Shown here piece by piece: positions 29,232 to 35,655 of a stretch of 45,260 nt of DNA. The stretch covers positions 1-45,260 of the forward strand of contig CAIJPI010000143.1 of assembly GCA_903822525.1 (NCBI GenBank), read 5' to 3'. The notes under the pieces are model-generated. The model was not told the origin of the DNA and ran no database searches. It saw only the letters and a list, made by a program, of their open reading frames with translations. A program made the position numbers and the translations under genes. This DNA is from an uncultured Bacteroidales bacterium. Its GTDB lineage: Bacteria > Bacteroidota > Bacteroidia > Bacteroidales > UBA4417. Numbering within the stretch: the first letter of the stretch is position 1; each line of letters begins with the position of its first letter.

Positions 29232-32200
29232 TTAACTTACAGCCTTTGTGCTTCCTGGTTTTTTTAATAAACCAAACAGTAACAGTAATGCCAGAATAAG
29301 TATCGTGGCTGCCGCGCTATACATCGAAATGAGATTGGATCTCCTGCCGAAGCCTTCCAGCGGACTAATATCACCAACATTCATATAGGCAGCCCAGTAA
29401 TGCGGATGCGATGTAAGTTTGTCGCAATGGTCGAGATATTCGATTTTTGCCAGGCGCAACGCTTCGTTTCGGGGTTTACCCATGCTTATGTATTTATAAA
29501 AATACTCCATGAGCTTCACTCCGGCCCTATCTTCAACAGCCCAGGCTGTCATAACTATACCCGGCACCCCGGCATAAAAAAAATCGCGCGAAAGGCTCAT
29601 GATCCCTTCCCCTTTCATCATTTTCCCTGACCCGGTATTACAGGCACTCAGCACGGCCATATCGGCATGTAATTCCATATTTATAAGCTCTGATGCATTA
29701 AGCATGCCATCATCAAGGGTATCGCCTTTTGGCTTGAAGAAAATTAGTTTTGAATATAAAGGATTTTCATTATTGATAATGGCATGCATGGCCAGGTGTA
29801 AAACCCTGAACCCCGAAGCATCTTTCTTAAAGGAAGTTTCTGTAGCGTCGTGGCCGGTATAGGTGTTTACTTTAAAATAGTCGCGCAGGATTTTGATTTC
29901 AGCAGGCGAATTTTTTAGATCCGAAAGTATACTTCGCAACAATTTTCCATTTTCATCTTTTTGGTCGAGTACCGCGTTGTTTGCTCCATAATCCGGACCG
30001 TAAGCCAGAATCCTGCCGTTATTTTGAGTGCTGTGTAAATTTAATTCATCAAAGAAAGTTGTGGCCGAAGGCGCATAACTCAATGCTGACTCACGGATAA
30101 GATACGGCAATTTCCTGTATGCAGGTTTTGTAGTATCCGGCATGCGGGTGAGCAATACATCGAACGAAAGGAATCCAAGTTCGCCATCCGGAATAATGAT
30201 CAGTTCCTTCCCTTCAATCAGCGGTTGCAACGGCAAAAGCAACATACGGTAAAGTCCATGGGAGGCGTGAACAAATTCCCTGTAATCGGCCCCAGAATAA
30301 TTATTGAATACTTTACTGCTTAACTGATTGCGAACAACTGATAGATTATTTGAAAATGTTGTATCGATCGGGGTCGAAACCAATTGTTTTTTGCCGGAAG
30401 TTATAGCAAACGTATATAGCGTGGAATCAGTAAGGGCGAATTCAATGATAGCCTGCTCAGGTGTAAGTTTCTTCTGTATAGCATCCATCGTGATTACTGA
30501 ATTGTCATACTTCAGATTATAGTAAACCGGATAGTTTTTTTCAATCGACCGGATAAGTTCATCCTGTTTGCGGCTCAGGTCAAATATCCTGCTGTTCCAT
30601 AATTTAATTTTGGCATCATCGGGAACAGCCGAAAGTTTCTGGTCGTGAATCTGCTTGTTGTAGAAATAGATTTCCGATTTCAGGCTTGCATCCTGAGCAA
30701 GAAGGTTTTCGGGAATCCGCCCTATATTTTTTGCTTCTTTATCACGCAGGTGTGAAAGCAGTACTGCTGATTTTCCTTTCTCCGACAAGGCAAAAGCTTT
30801 CTCGAGAGCATCGGAATTATTTGTTCTGCGGTAAAGCTCAATCTGAGCCTGCAAGGCAGTCGAGAAAGTGGTTTTTTCATTTCCCGAGATAAATATCTTG
30901 CTGTCTTCGTCCTGGTATGTCGACCGGAGCATCTCTATCATTTTAACAGAGAGGTTGTATGTTGCGGCACAAGCTTTCAGACATTCAATCTTCGTAGGAT
31001 CCGCTTTATACATCAGGTATAATACCCACGATTTGGCTGTTAAAGGATTTAAGAGGTTTCCATTGAGATTTTCGTTACTGATGGCGGGATTATCAGCCAG
31101 GTTCCGGGAAGTAAATTTTGGAAAGCCCGAATTCAGGGAATGCTGAAAATAGTCTGCTGCCTGAACAAAATCTTTTTTCCAGTAATAGTAGAGCCCTATA
31201 TAATAGTATGCTGTTGAAACATCAATGTTATTCTCGCCGAATGAGTTTTTATATAGTGCTAAGGACTTCTTCAGCAGACCCAGTGCCCCATTGTCCTGAA
31301 CCATCGAAAGGAAATCGCCATACCTTAAATAGGTCAGCGCAGTTTCAGTATTATCTTCACCGAACATTTCAATGCTTTTCTGAAGCGCTTCCTTATAGTA
31401 AGTCTCTGCATTGCTGTTATCGGCCATTTTATACGAAACATTAGCAAGCCCCCGGAGGACTTTAACCGAATTTGGCAATTTATCCCCAATGGATAAGCCT
31501 TTTAGGTAGTATGACTTGGCAGTAAGATAATCTCCTTTTTTTTCGGCTACGAAACCCATGTTGAGGTAAAGCGTAAGCAGGTCAGCCAGATTGCCCGGGG
31601 TTTTTGCTGAAATAATTTCAAGGGACTTGTTAAGATAGCTTTGCGCTTTCTCGTAATCGGCAGTATAAATGTATATTACTCCCATATTCAGGAAGAGCGA
31701 TCCCGCGGTTATAGAATTGGATTGATTTTGTGAAGTATAAAAGTTCTCGGCACGGTGCATGTACTCAATAGCCTTCGAATCGTTGCGAACAATCTGATAA
31801 AACCTGCCCATATTCAGATATAGGGAAGCCAGCTTTGGGCTATCCTGCTTTAATAATTCCTTATTTATTTTCAGTGATTTGAGAAAATATTGCTCTGCAT
31901 CTTCGTAATTCCCGGTCATCGAATATAATATTCCGATATTCTGCAGCGTACTGGCATAATCGGCGCTGCCGGTATGCTTCATTTTCTCGTAAATTCCGAG
32001 CGCTTCCTGGTATTCTTTGAGTGATTCGGTGTACTTGTTCTGAAAAAGAAGTACCGTTCCCATACCATTGTAGGATAGAGCAAGACCGGTATCGGGTTCG
32101 GCCGATCGGATCAGGTAGGTCTTAATATTGCGGTTATACAGTAGTGTAGCCTGTTCAAATTGCCTCCTGTCCGAAAACAGGTTTGCTTTTTTATGAATAA

Positions 32201-32558
32201 GGCCGTTGTATAGGTTGCCGGTTGTATCGAGGCTAGTGCGGGCAATTGTGAGTGAATGTTCGGCGATTTGCATCGCTTCATCAAGTTCTCCTTTGGACCT
32301 GTAACAATCAATCAAACCCGACACGCTTCTGGCCCATTCGGAATATTGTTTGATTCCAAGGCTCTGATCAGCAGCTTTTCTGAAAAAAATAATAGCTGAA
32401 TCGTTGCTTCCGCGGTTTTTTAATTGGCCCGCTATCAAGAAATCGGATTCTGTTTTTTGAGGGGTTCCTTCGCGGTTATTAGTATTGCACGACCACAAGC
32501 CCAGCAGTGGCAATATCATAAAAAGTCTGAAGCAGAATAATGCCAAAGGGCTTTTCAT
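29232..32558 (-). CDS. TPR-CHAT protein: exported caspase-like protease candidate
   Basis: 1108 residues in three parts. (1) A lipoprotein-type signal peptide with GLWSC (Cys24). (2) About nine to ten tetratricopeptide repeats from roughly 35 to 480 (for example LQNIGILYSMTGNYEDAEQY and LYLNMGFVAEKKGDYLTAKS), then a helical linker to ~640. (3) A C-terminal CHAT domain (about 760-1060) with the caspase-like dyad His925 in LHLAMHA and Cys973 in LSACNTGSG, followed by GEGIMSLSRDFFYAGVPG. A membrane helix (about 1076-1098) and a short basic tail end the protein. Signal plus tail helix place the protease in the periplasm, unlike cytoplasmic TPR-CHAT proteins such as Csx29. It has its own promoter (32619-32648). 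A sigma/TPR-anti-sigma pair lies 1.8 kb upstream on the other strand. Substrate unknown. Confidence 0.85.
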   Translation of the reverse strand: MKSPLALFCFRLFMILPLLGLWSCNTNNREGTPQKTESDFLIAGQLKNRGSNDSAIIFFRKAADQSLGIKQYSEWARSVSGLIDCYRSKGELDEAMQIAEHSLTIARTSLDTTGNLYNGLIHKKANLFSDRRQFEQATLLYNRNIKTYLIRSAEPDTGLALSYNGMGTVLLFQNKYTESLKEYQEALGIYEKMKHTGSADYASTLQNIGILYSMTGNYEDAEQYFLKSLKINKELLKQDSPKLASLYLNMGRFYQIVRNDSKAIEYMHRAENFYTSQNQSNSITAGSLFLNMGVIYIYTADYEKAQSYLNKSLEIISAKTPGNLADLLTLYLNMGFVAEKKGDYLTAKSYYLKGLSIGDKLPNSVKVLRGLANVSYKMADNSNAETYYKEALQKSIEMFGEDNTETALTYLRYGDFLSMVQDNGALGLLKKSLALYKNSFGENNIDVSTAYYYIGLYYYWKKDFVQAADYFQHSLNSGFPKFTSRNLADNPAISNENLNGNLLNPLTAKSWVLYLMYKADPTKIECLKACAATYNLSVKMIEMLRSTYQDEDSKIFISGNEKTTFSTALQAQIELYRRTNNSDALEKAFALSEKGKSAVLLSHLRDKEAKNIGRIPENLLAQDASLKSEIYFYNKQIHDQKLSAVPDDAKIKLWNSRIFDLSRKQDELIRSIEKNYPVYYNLKYDNSVITMDAIQKKLTPEQAIIEFALTDSTLYTFAITSGKKQLVSTPIDTTFSNNLSVVRNQLSSKVFNNYSGADYREFVHASHGLYRMLLLPLQPLIEGKELIIIPDGELGFLSFDVLLTRMPDTTKPAYRKLPYLIRESALSYAPSATTFFDELNLHSTQNNGRILAYGPDYGANNAVLDQKDENGKLLRSILSDLKNSPAEIKILRDYFKVNTYTGHDATETSFKKDASGFRVLHLAMHAIINNENPLYSKLIFFKPKGDTLDDGMLNASELINMELHADMAVLSACNTGSGKMMKGEGIMSLSRDFFYAGVPGIVMTAWAVEDRAGVKLMEYFYKYISMGKPRNEALRLAKIEYLDHCDKLTSHPHYWAAYMNVGDISPLEGFGRRSNLISMYSAAATILILALLLLFGLLKKPGSTKAVS

Positions 32559-32618
32559 AGGGAGAAATTTTGAGGCTATCTGCGGGAAGAGTAGTCAGGA
32601 GGACTTACGGGCAAGCAG

Positions 32619-32648
32619 CAAAGATATGCTAAAGTTGACTTTTGCAAA
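32619..32648 (-). promoter_or_regulatory. Promoter of the TPR-CHAT gene
   Basis: On the minus strand TTTG (32648-32645), 18 bases, then TATCTTTG (32626-32619). Both elements fit the Bacteroidota primary-sigma promoter (TTTG, ~19 bp, TAnnTTTG). It lies just after the terminator of the upstream gene and 60 bp before the ATG, so the CHAT gene is probably an independent, vegetatively expressed transcript. Confidence 0.65.
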
Positions 32649-32651
32649 TAA

Positions 32652-32676
32652 AAAAAGGAGCATTCAGCTCCTTTTT
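32652..32676 (-). terminator. Intrinsic terminator of the dockerin/cohesin-like T9SS gene
   Basis: Perfect stem AAAAAGGAGC (32652-32661) / GCTCCTTTTT (32667-32676) with loop ATTCA. Read on the minus strand it ends in a T-rich run, 20 bp after the stop codon of the gene ending at 32697. Confidence 0.85.
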
Positions 32677-32696
32677 ATTTTATGTCATATGTTGGA

Positions 32697-33929
32697 TTAG
32701 TCAGCTTTCAGTATTCTGACAGTTGCGCTTAGTTCATCCGAACTACCCTGTAGACGCATTTTGCATAAATAATAGCCTTGCGAAAGTTGTGATGCGTCGA
32801 GACTTACTTCATGCGTTCCGGCATTCAGATGTCCTGTGGGTATGCTCTTTACCAGTTGTCCGCTTGTGTTGTATACTTCAATTGTAGCATCTCCATCAAC
32901 AGGAGTATAAATACTGAGTGTTGTTGAGACATGGAATGGATTTGGGAAGTTGGAAAGTTTAAGTGCAGGATTGCCGTATTTAATAACAGGGGAAGCAAAA
33001 TGCAGGTCGGTAACCTCTTTATTCGAAGTGTTAATCAGGCTTGTATTTCCATCGAGGTTAATGCTTGCAGTCATACCTTGTTTAAAGTCAGCTTTGCTCA
33101 CTCCATGAATGGTGATAAAGGTTTCTCCTTCAGTAAAGTGTATAGCTGCAGTATTCGGGTTTCCCCATACCAGGCGAATCTGCCCGTCTGCAATATTGTA
33201 CTCAAAGTCATTTCCTTTAAATTCAACCGACTCAACACTGAGCAAATCTGACGGATAGTTAATAATGATTCCGGCACCTGAAATAGATATATCATTCCGG
33301 GTAAGTATCCGTGTTGTAAATGGTTCGCTGCTGCTTACATTAATTACACCATCCTGGGCAACAGGTATTGCTGGAAGGGTATTCACCGTTGGAACAAATG
33401 TGCCACCAACATCTCCCGAGCAGGTTCCGCCCAGGCCATGAGGAATGCCCTCTTTCATATTGGAAATGGTGAAAACTGAAGTTTCAAATTTCCATGGGCC
33501 TACAGGGAAAGGGGTTCCAAGCAGGATATGAGATATAATAAGGTTGTAATCGGTCCAGGTTATCGTGCCGCTGCCATTAACATCCGATGCGAGGAATTGC
33601 AGTGGTGTGAACTGGTAAAGCCCAAAAATATTCAGAAATACCATTATTGCATCGTAATAGGTTACCCCACCACTTGCATTTAATGTTGTGCCGGATAGGC
33701 TGTAATTGCCATTCGGAACATTCGAAAACTGATAAAAACCATTTCCTCCGGTAGTGTAAGTTTGAGTTGAATTTGTCAGGACATTTTTTAAAATAACTTT
33801 TACATTATTAATCGGTCTGATCGAATCATTTTGATACAGAACTTTGCCGCTTACATTCAGTGCATTCAGGTTTTGAACTGATAATATTACAATTAGTAAG
33901 AGCAGAAATGATTTTAAAAAGTTTTTCAT
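32697..33929 (-). CDS. Secreted T9SS protein with dockerin-like and cohesin-like domains
   Basis: 410 residues. Signal peptide 1-23. Next is a carboxypeptidase-regulatory-like beta domain (about 24-85, GKVLYQNDSIRPINNVKVIL). A dockerin-type segment (about 88-140) has one well-kept calcium loop, DVNGSGTITWTDYN, followed by LIISHILLG, and a degenerate partner around GGVTYYDAIM. A beta domain at about 190-305 resembles cohesin (PSDLLSVESVEFKGNDF, then EGETFITIHGVSK). The type IX sorting domain fills the last ~80 residues (LSNFPNPFHVSTTLSI, IEVYNTSGQLVKS, LSQGYYLCKMRL, TVRILKAD). The protein should be exported to the surface; the dockerin-like and cohesin-like parts suggest assembly with itself or others. 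No catalytic domain is visible. The cohesin call is the least certain. Confidence 0.75.
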   Translation of the reverse strand: MKNFLKSFLLLLIVILSVQNLNALNVSGKVLYQNDSIRPINNVKVILKNVLTNSTQTYTTGGNGFYQFSNVPNGNYSLSGTTLNASGGVTYYDAIMVFLNIFGLYQFTPLQFLASDVNGSGTITWTDYNLIISHILLGTPFPVGPWKFETSVFTISNMKEGIPHGLGGTCSGDVGGTFVPTVNTLPAIPVAQDGVINVSSSEPFTTRILTRNDISISGAGIIINYPSDLLSVESVEFKGNDFEYNIADGQIRLVWGNPNTAAIHFTEGETFITIHGVSKADFKQGMTASINLDGNTSLINTSNKEVTDLHFASPVIKYGNPALKLSNFPNPFHVSTTLSIYTPVDGDATIEVYNTSGQLVKSIPTGHLNAGTHEVSLDASQLSQGYYLCKMRLQGSSDELSATVRILKAD

Positions 33930-34325
33930 GGCGTTGGAGAATAAATTTAGTATAAATCGTTTACAACTTTGATTGCTTGTTTGTTACGTACTTTTTCCGG
34001 CCTGACTCTCTGAATCTTAAATAGCATATCACACGCATTCTATCGATACGATATATGACTTTATCCACTTTTTTCAAAAAGGTAATATGGATTTATTAAA
34101 ATAGTTGTTGAAAAATTCAAATTTGTGTGATATTTGCAAACAAATCCGTCAAAAAACTTTGCGATTTCTGAGGTCATTTTATCGCAGAATGTAAAAATTG
34201 TTTAAAAATAATGTTTTATATAAAACGTTATAAAACAGCTTGTTGCGGGTTATTTGTATTTTTTATTAAAAAAAAATTCAAAAATGGTATTACCTTTTTT
34301 AAAAATTCGGATAATATAGCAAGTG
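33930..34325. other. AT-rich divergent promoter region between the T9SS gene and the ECF sigma operon
   Basis: About 400 bases without a gene, strongly AT-rich. It holds a widely spaced perfect 12-bp inverted repeat, AAAAAGGTAATA (34076-34087) and TATTACCTTTTT (34288-34299). The right copy contains the near-palindrome GGTATTACC and lies only 26 bp before the sigma-factor ATG. A smaller inverted repeat TGCGAT (34160-34165) / ATCGCA (34181-34186) lies between. No clear TTTG/TAnnTTTG promoter is visible for either side, so one or both may be read by an alternative sigma factor. Confidence 0.5.
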
Positions 34326-34916
34326 ATGATCCATTATTCTGATGAAGCCATACTGGAAGGACTGAGATTAAGGAGTGATTACATCATTAATTTCATATAC
34401 AAGGAATTTTTTCCGTTGATTCGATTCCTTGTTAACGAAAACGGAGGGTCCGATGAAGATTCAGAGGATATTTTTCAGGATGGGATAATTATCATTTACA
34501 ATAAAATCAATATTAATCAACTTGTACTTACCAGTTCTTTCAAAACATACATGTATTCGGTTTGCCGGAATCTCTGGCTTCAGAAGCTGAAAAAAAGGAA
34601 GGCAATTTTCGAGAAGCTAACTGATGTGGAAGAGTATATCGAACTTCCTATTGATGTGCTCCAGGAAGCCAGCCTTGAACAAACCGAATTGCACCGGATC
34701 ATTCAGATTCATTTTCTGTCCTTAGAAGAGAATTGCCAGAAACTGCTGAAACTATTTATAAAAAATATTCCGTTGCGCGAAATAGCTTCTATTCTTGGTT
34801 TTAAAACCGAAAAGTATGCTAAAACCCGGAAGTACATGTGTAAAGAAGAACTTAAGAAACGTATCGCTAATGACCCGCGAAGTCAAAAAATTTTAAAAAA
34901 TGACCCTCAAATTTAA
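34326..34916 (+). CDS. ECF-type RNA polymerase sigma factor
   Basis: 196 residues from the ATG at 34326 (a GTG directly before it is an alternative). Sigma region 2 spans about 20-85 (FIYKEFFPLIRFLV, then DSEDIFQDGIIIIYNKI, then SSFKTYMYSVCRNLWLQKLKK-type segment). Region 4 spans about 130-185, with a helix-turn-helix around NIPLREIASILGFKTEKYAKTR. No region 1 or 3, as in ECF factors. The stop overlaps the start of the next gene by 17 bp, the arrangement expected of a sigma and its regulator. Which promoters it reads is unknown; the spaced repeats upstream are candidates. Confidence 0.88.
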   Translation: MIHYSDEAILEGLRLRSDYIINFIYKEFFPLIRFLVNENGGSDEDSEDIFQDGIIIIYNKININQLVLTSSFKTYMYSVCRNLWLQKLKKRKAIFEKLTDVEEYIELPIDVLQEASLEQTELHRIIQIHFLSLEENCQKLLKLFIKNIPLREIASILGFKTEKYAKTRKYMCKEELKKRIANDPRSQKILKNDPQI

Positions 34917-35655
34917 ACATTCTGCCAGCATCGAGCAATATCTTGCTAATGAAATGGCACCTGCCACACGATCCGCTTTCGAGAATGAAGTACGGTCCAA
35001 TCCGGATCTTGCTGAAGAATTGAAGCTTTCGCTAAGTATTGATTCGGCAATTCAAAGGGATGATATACTTGATTTACGGCAGAAACTGATTGCATCAATC
35101 AAAGCTGGAGGAGTTTCGAAAACCGAAACCCCGGTAATATTCATGAGTACCCGGAAATGGTGGTATGCCGCAGCATCTTTCCTTGTTCTGGTGTCCTTTG
35201 CGGCAACATTATATTTTCAGGCTAACCGCAAATTAACCGACGATTCGCTGTTTATGCAATATTATAATGCTGAAAATATTGTGGACCAAACCCGTGGCGA
35301 TCAGAATATTGTTGAAGCCGTAATCAAATTCCAACAAAAGGATTTCAGAGCAGCTTCCGTATTGTTTAAGAACATACTGGATGCCGATCAATCAAACATG
35401 GCTGTTATGTTCTACTACGGCATAGCCAATATTGAAACTAACAATTACAGCAATTCGATCAAGGCTTTTAATACCATCATCAAACAAAACGATAACCTGT
35501 ATATCGAACATGCTGAATGGTACCTGGGATTGTGCTACCTGAAAAATAACCAGAAAGACAAGGCTATCGATCAGTTTATAATTGTTGCCGCTGATACTGA
35601 GAATTTCCACCGCCAGGAAGCGAAAAATATTTTAGAAAAACTGCAGCTTAAATAA
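34900..35655 (+). CDS. Membrane TPR protein, probable non-zinc anti-sigma factor
   Basis: 251 residues. The N-terminal ~75 residues are cytoplasmic and resemble the start of Bacteroidota anti-sigma proteins (IEQYLANEMAPATRSAFENE, then NPDLAEELKL), but contain no His/Cys zinc site. One membrane helix follows (about 84-103, WWYAAASFLVLVSFAATLYF). The C-terminal ~140 residues, on the periplasmic side, form three to four TPR units (KFQQKDFRAASVLFKNIL, MFYYGIANIETNNYSNSIKA, WYLGLCYLKNNQKDKAIDQF). Overlap with the sigma gene and domain order suggest that it holds the sigma at the membrane and senses something through the TPR part. A terminator follows at 35682. Function inferred. Confidence 0.75.
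   Translation: MTLKFKHSASIEQYLANEMAPATRSAFENEVRSNPDLAEELKLSLSIDSAIQRDDILDLRQKLIASIKAGGVSKTETPVIFMSTRKWWYAAASFLVLVSFAATLYFQANRKLTDDSLFMQYYNAENIVDQTRGDQNIVEAVIKFQQKDFRAASVLFKNILDADQSNMAVMFYYGIANIETNNYSNSIKAFNTIIKQNDNLYIEHAEWYLGLCYLKNNQKDKAIDQFIIVAADTENFHRQEAKNILEKLQLK

Follow-up and report, generated by a model that had tools for sequence, protein, structure and literature searches.

What does a protease of the TPR-CHAT type do beside an extracytoplasmic function (ECF) sigma factor and a membrane protein that resembles an anti-sigma factor? This question is raised by contig CAIJPI010000143.1 of an uncultured Bacteroidales bacterium (lineage UBA4417, assembly GCA_903822525.1), all 45,260 nucleotides of which are called the window here. 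An earlier note on this DNA had pointed to three genes, encoding a TPR-CHAT protein (CHAT), an ECF sigma factor (SIG) and a membrane-bound TPR protein whose gene overlaps that of the sigma factor (ASIG), and had proposed that CHAT cuts ASIG on the periplasmic side and thereby frees SIG. All three genes are found where they had been placed, and the proposed mechanism is strongly supported by the computations described below, with the cleavage itself predicted. Beyond the earlier note, the analysis yields a candidate scissile bond, Arg132-Gly133 of ASIG, a reciprocal covariation of protease and anti-sigma factor, and a shared promoter-like motif. The three genes very probably form a switch that is a CRISPR-free relative of the protease switch of type III-E CRISPR systems and that operates by a cut at one specific residue.

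The CHAT domain of the protease, which is preceded by TPRs, is recognized by PF12770 far above the curated cut-off (186 bits versus 24, E=1e-54), and the protein carries the His-Cys dyad of the family. The dyad had been described as intact, and indeed both His925 and Cys973 are invariant across 34 diverse relatives. The lipoprotein signal that had been read at the N-terminus (MKSPLALFCFRLFMILPLLGLWSC) is borne out by a lipobox cysteine, Cys24, that is invariant in nine close homologs, and the C-terminal membrane helix spans residues ~1072-1098 in an AlphaFold2 model and is followed by a positively charged tail. Such a C-terminal transmembrane helix is present at 78 of 80 loci selected by CHAT. 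The whole genome holds one full CHAT gene and one fragment, and defence-system models returned a generic TPR match only.

SIG matches the sigma70-ECF model TIGR02937 with 55.3 bits (cut-off 42.9, E=6e-15) and is thus an ECF sigma factor. The GTG at 34323 is probably one codon too early as a start, because relatives begin with MIHYSDEA, which corresponds to the ATG at 34326. The ASIG gene overlaps that of SIG by 17 nt and encodes a charged N-terminal helical region, one transmembrane helix and three to four TPRs. The N-terminus had been called anti-sigma-like from its appearance, and this is upheld at the level of the family, 22 of 35 members of which match the NCBIfam 'antisigma' model NF052375 (best E 2e-10); the ASIG of the window taken alone gives a marginal match (E=0.026). 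A Foldseek search with the ASIG model returned TPR proteins only and did not confirm an anti-sigma fold of the N-terminal part. A natural fusion of SIG and ASIG into one 448-aa frame occurs in a genome of another family (L045:3146-4489, + strand), with an Arg-Ala site kept in the linker. Together, the N-terminus, the overlap with SIG, the single transmembrane helix and the fusion suggest that ASIG has the architecture of a membrane anti-sigma factor.

To what extent do the three genes belong together? One-per-species genomes were scanned by CHAT alone, which gave 80 loci, 33 of them flanked by 4 kb or more of sequence on either side. Among these 33, SIG lies within 4 kb of CHAT in 29 and ASIG in 27. 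In the reverse direction, 40 loci were chosen by ASIG alone in a phylum-wide draw; SIG is adjacent in 37 and CHAT is present within ~10 kb in 32. A related CHAT is encoded in 38 of 41 ASIG-positive genomes versus 46 of 157 ASIG-negative ones. Within the genus of the window, the block is flanked by the same MutS2/thioredoxin and dehydrogenase genes and, as it sits in conserved housekeeping synteny there, proves little by itself. Outside the genus, CHAT and the same sigma factor occur together in other arrangements. Counted over the loci, CHAT stands tail-to-tail with ASIG-SIG (26), head-to-head as in the window (9), between SIG and ASIG (7) or co-directionally (4). Since the association is kept in several gene orders, housekeeping synteny is not its cause and could be ruled out as a sole explanation. 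The co-occurrence within 10 kb, proposed earlier as a check, thus extends over many families and gene orders and lies far beyond chance. We state with confidence that the CHAT-SIG-ASIG association is real and phylum-wide. Among the relatives that can be cultured, the module is found in, e.g., Marinifilum, Prolixibacter and Labilibaculum. In a small comparison, a sigma factor adjoins only one of 11 CHATs without a C-terminal transmembrane helix versus five of seven with one.

For CHAT to act on ASIG, the relevant parts would have to meet in one compartment. Beside the ASIG membrane helix, the mean net charge is +2.75 on the N-terminal side versus +0.27 on the other, and 71 of 77 proteins are asymmetric in this direction, which places the TPRs outside. 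The C-terminal helix of CHAT has a mean net charge of +4.3 after it versus +0.5 before it, with positive tails in 99 of 106 proteins; the protease would therefore also lie outside and end in the inner membrane. By the charge rule, this suggests that the TPR parts of both proteins, and with them the CHAT domain, are periplasmic. The topology originally predicted for the two TPR parts is in agreement, and a CHAT domain on the opposite side of the membrane, which would have spoken against the proposal, is not what the charges indicate.

The strongest evidence for a pairing of protease and substrate comes from covariation between the two sequences. Three residues are invariant among 35 diverse ASIGs; two reside in TPRs, and the third, Arg132, in the linker between the membrane helix and the first TPR. 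The residue that follows it is Ser or Gly in 102 of 122 proteins and otherwise another small or polar residue. Across the 138 ASIGs of CHAT-positive genomes, column 132 holds Arg 123 times, Met nine times and Lys four times, and Met or Leu replaces Arg132 in about a dozen relatives. In CHAT-less genomes Arg132 is kept in none of six cases, a weak control as a sigma gene lies next door in only three of the six. For 111 pairs, formed by assigning to each ASIG the closest CHAT of its locus, all columns of the CHAT alignment were compared with the type of site, and Glu887 ranked first (p=2e-10, to be read as a ranking): Glu is found in 98 of 99 partners of Arg-type sites, while the position is acidic in one of nine partners of Met-type sites. 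The second-ranked column, 1009, is the neighbour of the third, Asp1010, which is Asp in all 99 Arg-type partners, whereas the Met-type partners have four Asp, four Glu and one Pro. The rule was then applied to 20 further loci, where Glu was present at 887 in eight of eight readable Arg-type cases and in none of four Met/Leu-type cases (Leu, Leu, Ser and Asp instead). Reciprocally, when 122 pairs were examined from the side of ASIG, CHAT 887 was tracked most closely by column 132 (p=1e-13; next column 3e-7, both again rankings).

The positions of the covarying residues are in line with a role in reading Arg at P1. In proteases of clan CD that cut after Arg, one acidic residue of the S1 pocket lies in or near helix alpha-1 (Asp163 in gingipain, Asp365 in MALT1, a Glu in a separase) and the helix that follows the catalytic Cys provides another (Asp1082 in C. 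elegans separase, Glu500 in MALT1) (PMC4626109). In the AlphaFold2 model of CHAT, the His strand is preceded by another strand and this one by the helix with Glu887; Asp1010 begins the helix after Cys973. By secondary structure, the pair is thus predicted to match the two S1 positions of gingipain-R, MALT1 and separase.

Several observations weigh against this picture. Residues 131-134 of ASIG form a loop between short helices in the AlphaFold2 model, so that Arg132 might have a structural role. On the best CHAT tree, which was built without the covarying columns, the Met/Leu sites cluster into about seven groups; few of these lie on well-supported branches, and five show loss of Glu887. The p-values given above therefore overstate independence, and a strict independent-pair test on this tree had too few supported switches to reach significance. 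There are exceptions to the rule, namely L226 (Met with Glu887), L270 (Leu with Asp), L227 (Arg with Arg in a short CHAT), L195 and L239; some of them stem from genomes with many paralogs, where the pairing of CHAT and ASIG is uncertain. Furthermore, the residue that corresponds to the S1 Asp of separase as placed by PMC9729208, both by position (41 residues beyond the catalytic Cys) and by a weak sequence alignment with Craspase, is 1014, and it is not acidic, so Arg would be read by 887 and perhaps by 1010. A simple offset would equate Asp1010 with the separase Asp, but this was rejected in favour of 1014, to which both the alignment and the Craspase comparison in the literature lead; the claim is accordingly limited to the region of the pocket and does not extend to the residue. 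As regards gene order, four of the 33 CHAT loci have no sigma gene nearby, and in two members of the genus (G002, G011) CHAT has moved away from SIG-ASIG; it persists elsewhere in these genomes, which rules out its loss. Finally, the CHAT gene lacks the promoter-like motif described in the following.

Each of the 18 SIG copies compared has, in its upstream region, TATTACCTTTTT-N9-GGATAA or a motif close to it, in some cases with a substitution. About 12 nt separate the end of the motif from the SIG start codon, and an inverted copy precedes the neighbouring gene, which encodes a protein sorted by the type IX secretion system (T9SS). With two mismatches allowed, 0.03 occurrences of the pattern would be expected in the window and two are found, and exact matches to TATTACCTTTT-N10-GGATAA in the 4.1 Mb genome are confined to the two sites before SIG and the T9SS gene. 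This fits, as far as sequence can tell, a sigma factor that regulates itself and has a very small regulon; it is also possible that the motif is an operator. In the stretch 34309-34326 of the window, the -10-like GGATAA leaves ~12 nt to the SIG start, a distance that is similarly short in most orthologs, and a transcript from it would hence be almost leaderless. In families with the tail-to-tail arrangement, no copy of the motif was detected ahead of either SIG or CHAT. The T9SS gene and a terminator had been cited as a caution, since they separate CHAT from SIG. Both are present, but the gene is no mere intruder: it carries the motif of SIG and recurs beside CHAT in related loci, and its product is for this reason probably the output of the switch. 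The promoter that had been assigned to the CHAT gene itself is readable upstream as a -33/-7 pair, which we take to be of the Bacteroidota primary-sigma type by the general consensus of such promoters. A CHAT gene behind a terminator-like hairpin and with its own promoter of this kind fits a sensor that is needed before the signal arrives.

The following mechanism can be proposed. SIG would be held by the cytoplasmic N-terminus of ASIG, the TPRs of which face the periplasm. CHAT, made from its own housekeeping-type promoter, would be tethered at both ends to the face of the inner membrane, by its signal/lipobox N-terminus and its C-terminal helix, with TPRs and protease in the periplasm. Upon sensing an envelope signal through its TPRs, CHAT would cut the linker between membrane helix and TPRs of ASIG after Arg132 and before Gly133, with Glu887 and Asp1010 as its S1 pocket. 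What remains on the ASIG helix, a short stub, would become a substrate of an M50 intramembrane protease, one of which is encoded in the genome, and SIG would be freed. One promoter, present in two copies, would let SIG transcribe both the operon in which it lies and the divergent T9SS gene; the output would then be more of the switch and a T9SS-exported surface protein. We consider this protease-gated sigma switch across the inner membrane likely as a whole. It joins computed elements, i.e., association, topology signals, dyad, invariant Arg, covariation and motif, with steps that we infer, i.e., binding, cleavage, the M50 step, the signal and the dependence of the promoters on SIG. Our confidence in a functional association of CHAT with SIG-ASIG is higher than that in the full mechanism.

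In principle, the same set of genes could work without any cut in ASIG. CHAT might bind the TPRs of ASIG in a sensing complex and release SIG by a conformational change, Arg132 and Glu887 forming a salt bridge. In its favour, TPRs occur in both partners, which are predicted to share one side of the membrane, and a charge pair would covary as well. Nevertheless, no aligned relative departs from the catalytic His and Cys, the covarying residues occupy predicted S1-pocket positions of clan CD (PMC4626109), and Arg is exchanged for Met and Leu while the small residue after the site is kept, which makes a purely conformational release unlikely.

A different possibility is that CHAT cuts another target, for instance the T9SS protein or a target in the envelope, that its proximity to SIG-ASIG reflects the joint regulation of a stress regulon and that ASIG is cut by a DegS-like protease. 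The intervening T9SS gene does bear the SIG motif, CHAT is sometimes distant from SIG-ASIG, and the four CHAT loci without a sigma gene would be accounted for. Yet it is the linker residue of ASIG that the pocket residues of CHAT specifically track, and CHAT, lacking the motif, is not simply a member of the regulon; we regard this explanation as improbable. The idea that the genes are neighbours by inherited housekeeping synteny alone, with Arg132 as a structural residue of the TPR cap and no functional link, draws on the MutS2/thioredoxin and dehydrogenase genes shared within the genus. It was already disfavoured by an association that holds in at least four gene orders, in many families and in both directions of search, and as the change from Arg to Met or Leu is accompanied by loss of Glu887 in CHAT, it appears very improbable. 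Cleavage of ASIG by CHAT thus stays the preferred explanation.

If it is correct, the many CHAT proteins of Bacteroidota that bear a signal peptide would gain a function, a substrate and a scissile residue, and sigma switches under CHAT control would form a wider group with the RNA-triggered Craspase as one of its branches. The predicted Arg132/Glu887 pair lends itself to direct tests, and nature supplies swaps of specificity in the Met/Leu lineages, with the Met pairs at L242 and L250 as examples. Across the phylum, we think it rather probable that CRISPR-free periplasmic switches made of a separase-like protease and a membrane TPR anti-sigma factor exist in up to several copies per genome and that cleavage residue and protease pocket have co-evolved into Arg-reading and Met/Leu-reading lineages, maybe as insulated parallel signalling channels. 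Large CHAT expansions were seen in three genomes, G525, G578 and G257, with 33, 31 and 22 CHAT matches, respectively, and several ASIGs each. Genomes with many CHATs suggest that the scheme has been multiplied into parallel sensors.

Table 1. Features of the CHAT-SIG-ASIG locus, in window positions; roles of individual residues and motifs are predictions.
Feature	Position	Strand	Remarks
TPR-CHAT protease gene	29232..32558	-	1108 aa; signal/lipobox N-terminus, TPR array ~39-480, caspase-like region ~700-1065, C-terminal transmembrane helix
CHAT C-terminal transmembrane helix with basic, predicted cytoplasmic tail	29274..29330	-	hydropathy, charge, AlphaFold2 helix 1072-1098
Asp1010 codon, predicted second S1 acid, start of helix 1010-1025	29529..29531	-	covariation
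Cys973 codon, catalytic	29640..29642	-	invariance in alignments of relatives
His925 codon, catalytic	29784..29786	-	invariance in alignments of relatives
Glu887 codon, predicted S1-pocket acid (helix alpha-1)	29898..29900	-	covariation with ASIG site, held-out loci, reciprocal test
Putative primary-sigma-type promoter of CHAT, TTTG ... TATCTTTG	32619..32648	-	read from sequence
Terminator-like hairpin upstream of CHAT promoter	32652-32676		
T9SS-sorted surface/secreted protein	32697..33929	-	CarboxypepD_reg/SdrD_B-like, dockerin-like and Por_Secre_tail domains
TATTACCTTTT-N10-GGATAA motif upstream of T9SS gene	34061..34087	-	
TATTACCTTTT-N10-GGATAA motif immediately 5' of SIG	34288..34314	+	
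ECF sigma factor SIG	34326..34916	+	
TPR anti-sigma factor ASIG (putative)	34900..35655	+	anti-sigma-like, predicted cytoplasmic residues 1-80, transmembrane helix 84-107, linker, predicted periplasmic TPRs 135-249
Arg132-Gly133, predicted scissile bond (P1-P1')	35293..35298	+	invariance, covariation

The survey also revealed variation in the make-up of the loci. In several members of the genus (L034, L036, L037, L038) the SIG-ASIG pair is duplicated in tandem, while L040 has an extra ASIG but no extra SIG. In Prolixibacteraceae and relatives (L110, L114, L129, L138, L142, L146), ASIG comprises ~500 aa with apparent repeats of anti-sigma-like N-terminal segments. A second sigma factor, 47% identical to SIG and conserved throughout the genus, is encoded without ASIG or CHAT nearby (G000:C257:25356-25919). 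At L039, L041, L053 and L054, which belong to two members of the genus, CHAT is gone from the locus and replaced by unrelated genes, while the T9SS gene, SIG and ASIG remain. At L079, L089 and L090, CHATs without a C-terminal transmembrane helix reside beside SIG-ASIG, two of them in one strand-continuous row; they may represent an alternative architecture of the switch.

How does the proposed switch relate to systems already known? The CHAT model is structurally closest to Csx29 (Z ~30, across ~500 residues, i.e., the TPR-CHAT fold), followed by separase (Z ~26) and DdvA (Z ~21). When solved structures were searched by sequence with the wider CHAT alignment, DdvA was nearest (E=1e-5) and Csx29 was also found; the close alignment yielded nothing meaningful. 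Csx29 and its substrate Csx30, named as the precedent in the earlier note, hence hold their place as the best structural match, but not as the sole closest precedent, as DdvA of Myxococcus is also close. An open-licence literature search found no description of a Bacteroidota CHAT-SIG-ASIG module.

Like Craspase (Csx29, Csx30 and CASP-sigma/RpoE), the switch combines a TPR-CHAT protease with an inhibitor that holds an ECF sigma factor (PMC10028731, PMC9729208), the hold on the sigma factor and the cleavage being predicted in our case. Craspase is cytoplasmic, activated by RNA and part of Cas7-11, whereas the proteins described here are membrane-anchored and would face the periplasm, and Csx30 does not resemble ASIG. 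The earlier note's view of a switch without CRISPR agrees with the genome, which has no RAMP match, and identity with a type III-E CRISPR system was rejected for lack of a RAMP match. In Craspase, Lys replaces the S1 Asp of separase, and the cut in Csx30 falls behind Leu407 or close to Met427 (PMC9729208, PMC10028731). The main type of site predicted here is Arg instead; its exchange for Met or Leu together with loss of the pocket acid would follow the same logic as the S1 Lys and the Leu/Met cut sites of Craspase.

With DdvA-DdvS of Myxococcus xanthus (PDB 8rot, 8rw5; Sci Adv 2024, eadp1053, cited by its title via PMC12288465) our locus shares a transmembrane anti-sigma factor, a CHAT region and an ECF sigma factor. 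DdvA unites CHAT domain and transmembrane anti-sigma factor in one chain, while in the window and its relatives protease and anti-sigma factor are encoded by separate genes and no CHAT occurs in the same polypeptide as the anti-sigma part. Moreover, and in contrast to DdvA, the dyad is intact here and the pocket covaries with a site in a separate, predicted substrate. The active site of DdvA is reportedly incomplete, and self-cleavage is said to have been proposed.

CHAT-domain genes also belong to the conserved neighbourhood of ECF54 sigma factors, which are described without an anti-sigma factor and with an example from Geodermatophilus (PMC8999054). Compared by description, both settings have CHAT genes near a sigma gene, but the ECF54 example is not from Bacteroidota and has no anti-sigma factor. 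With separase, CHAT has in common helical repeats of the TPR type joined to a caspase-like fold and, as predicted, Arg at P1; unlike in the ExxR sites of separase, ASIG has no conserved Glu at P4, and Arg would be read by the acids at 887 and probably 1010. The course of events would resemble that in RseA-DegS-RseP, where a periplasmic cut in a membrane anti-sigma factor is followed by an intramembrane cut, except that the first protease would be a cysteine protease of the CHAT type and not a serine protease, and that the anti-sigma factor bears TPRs.

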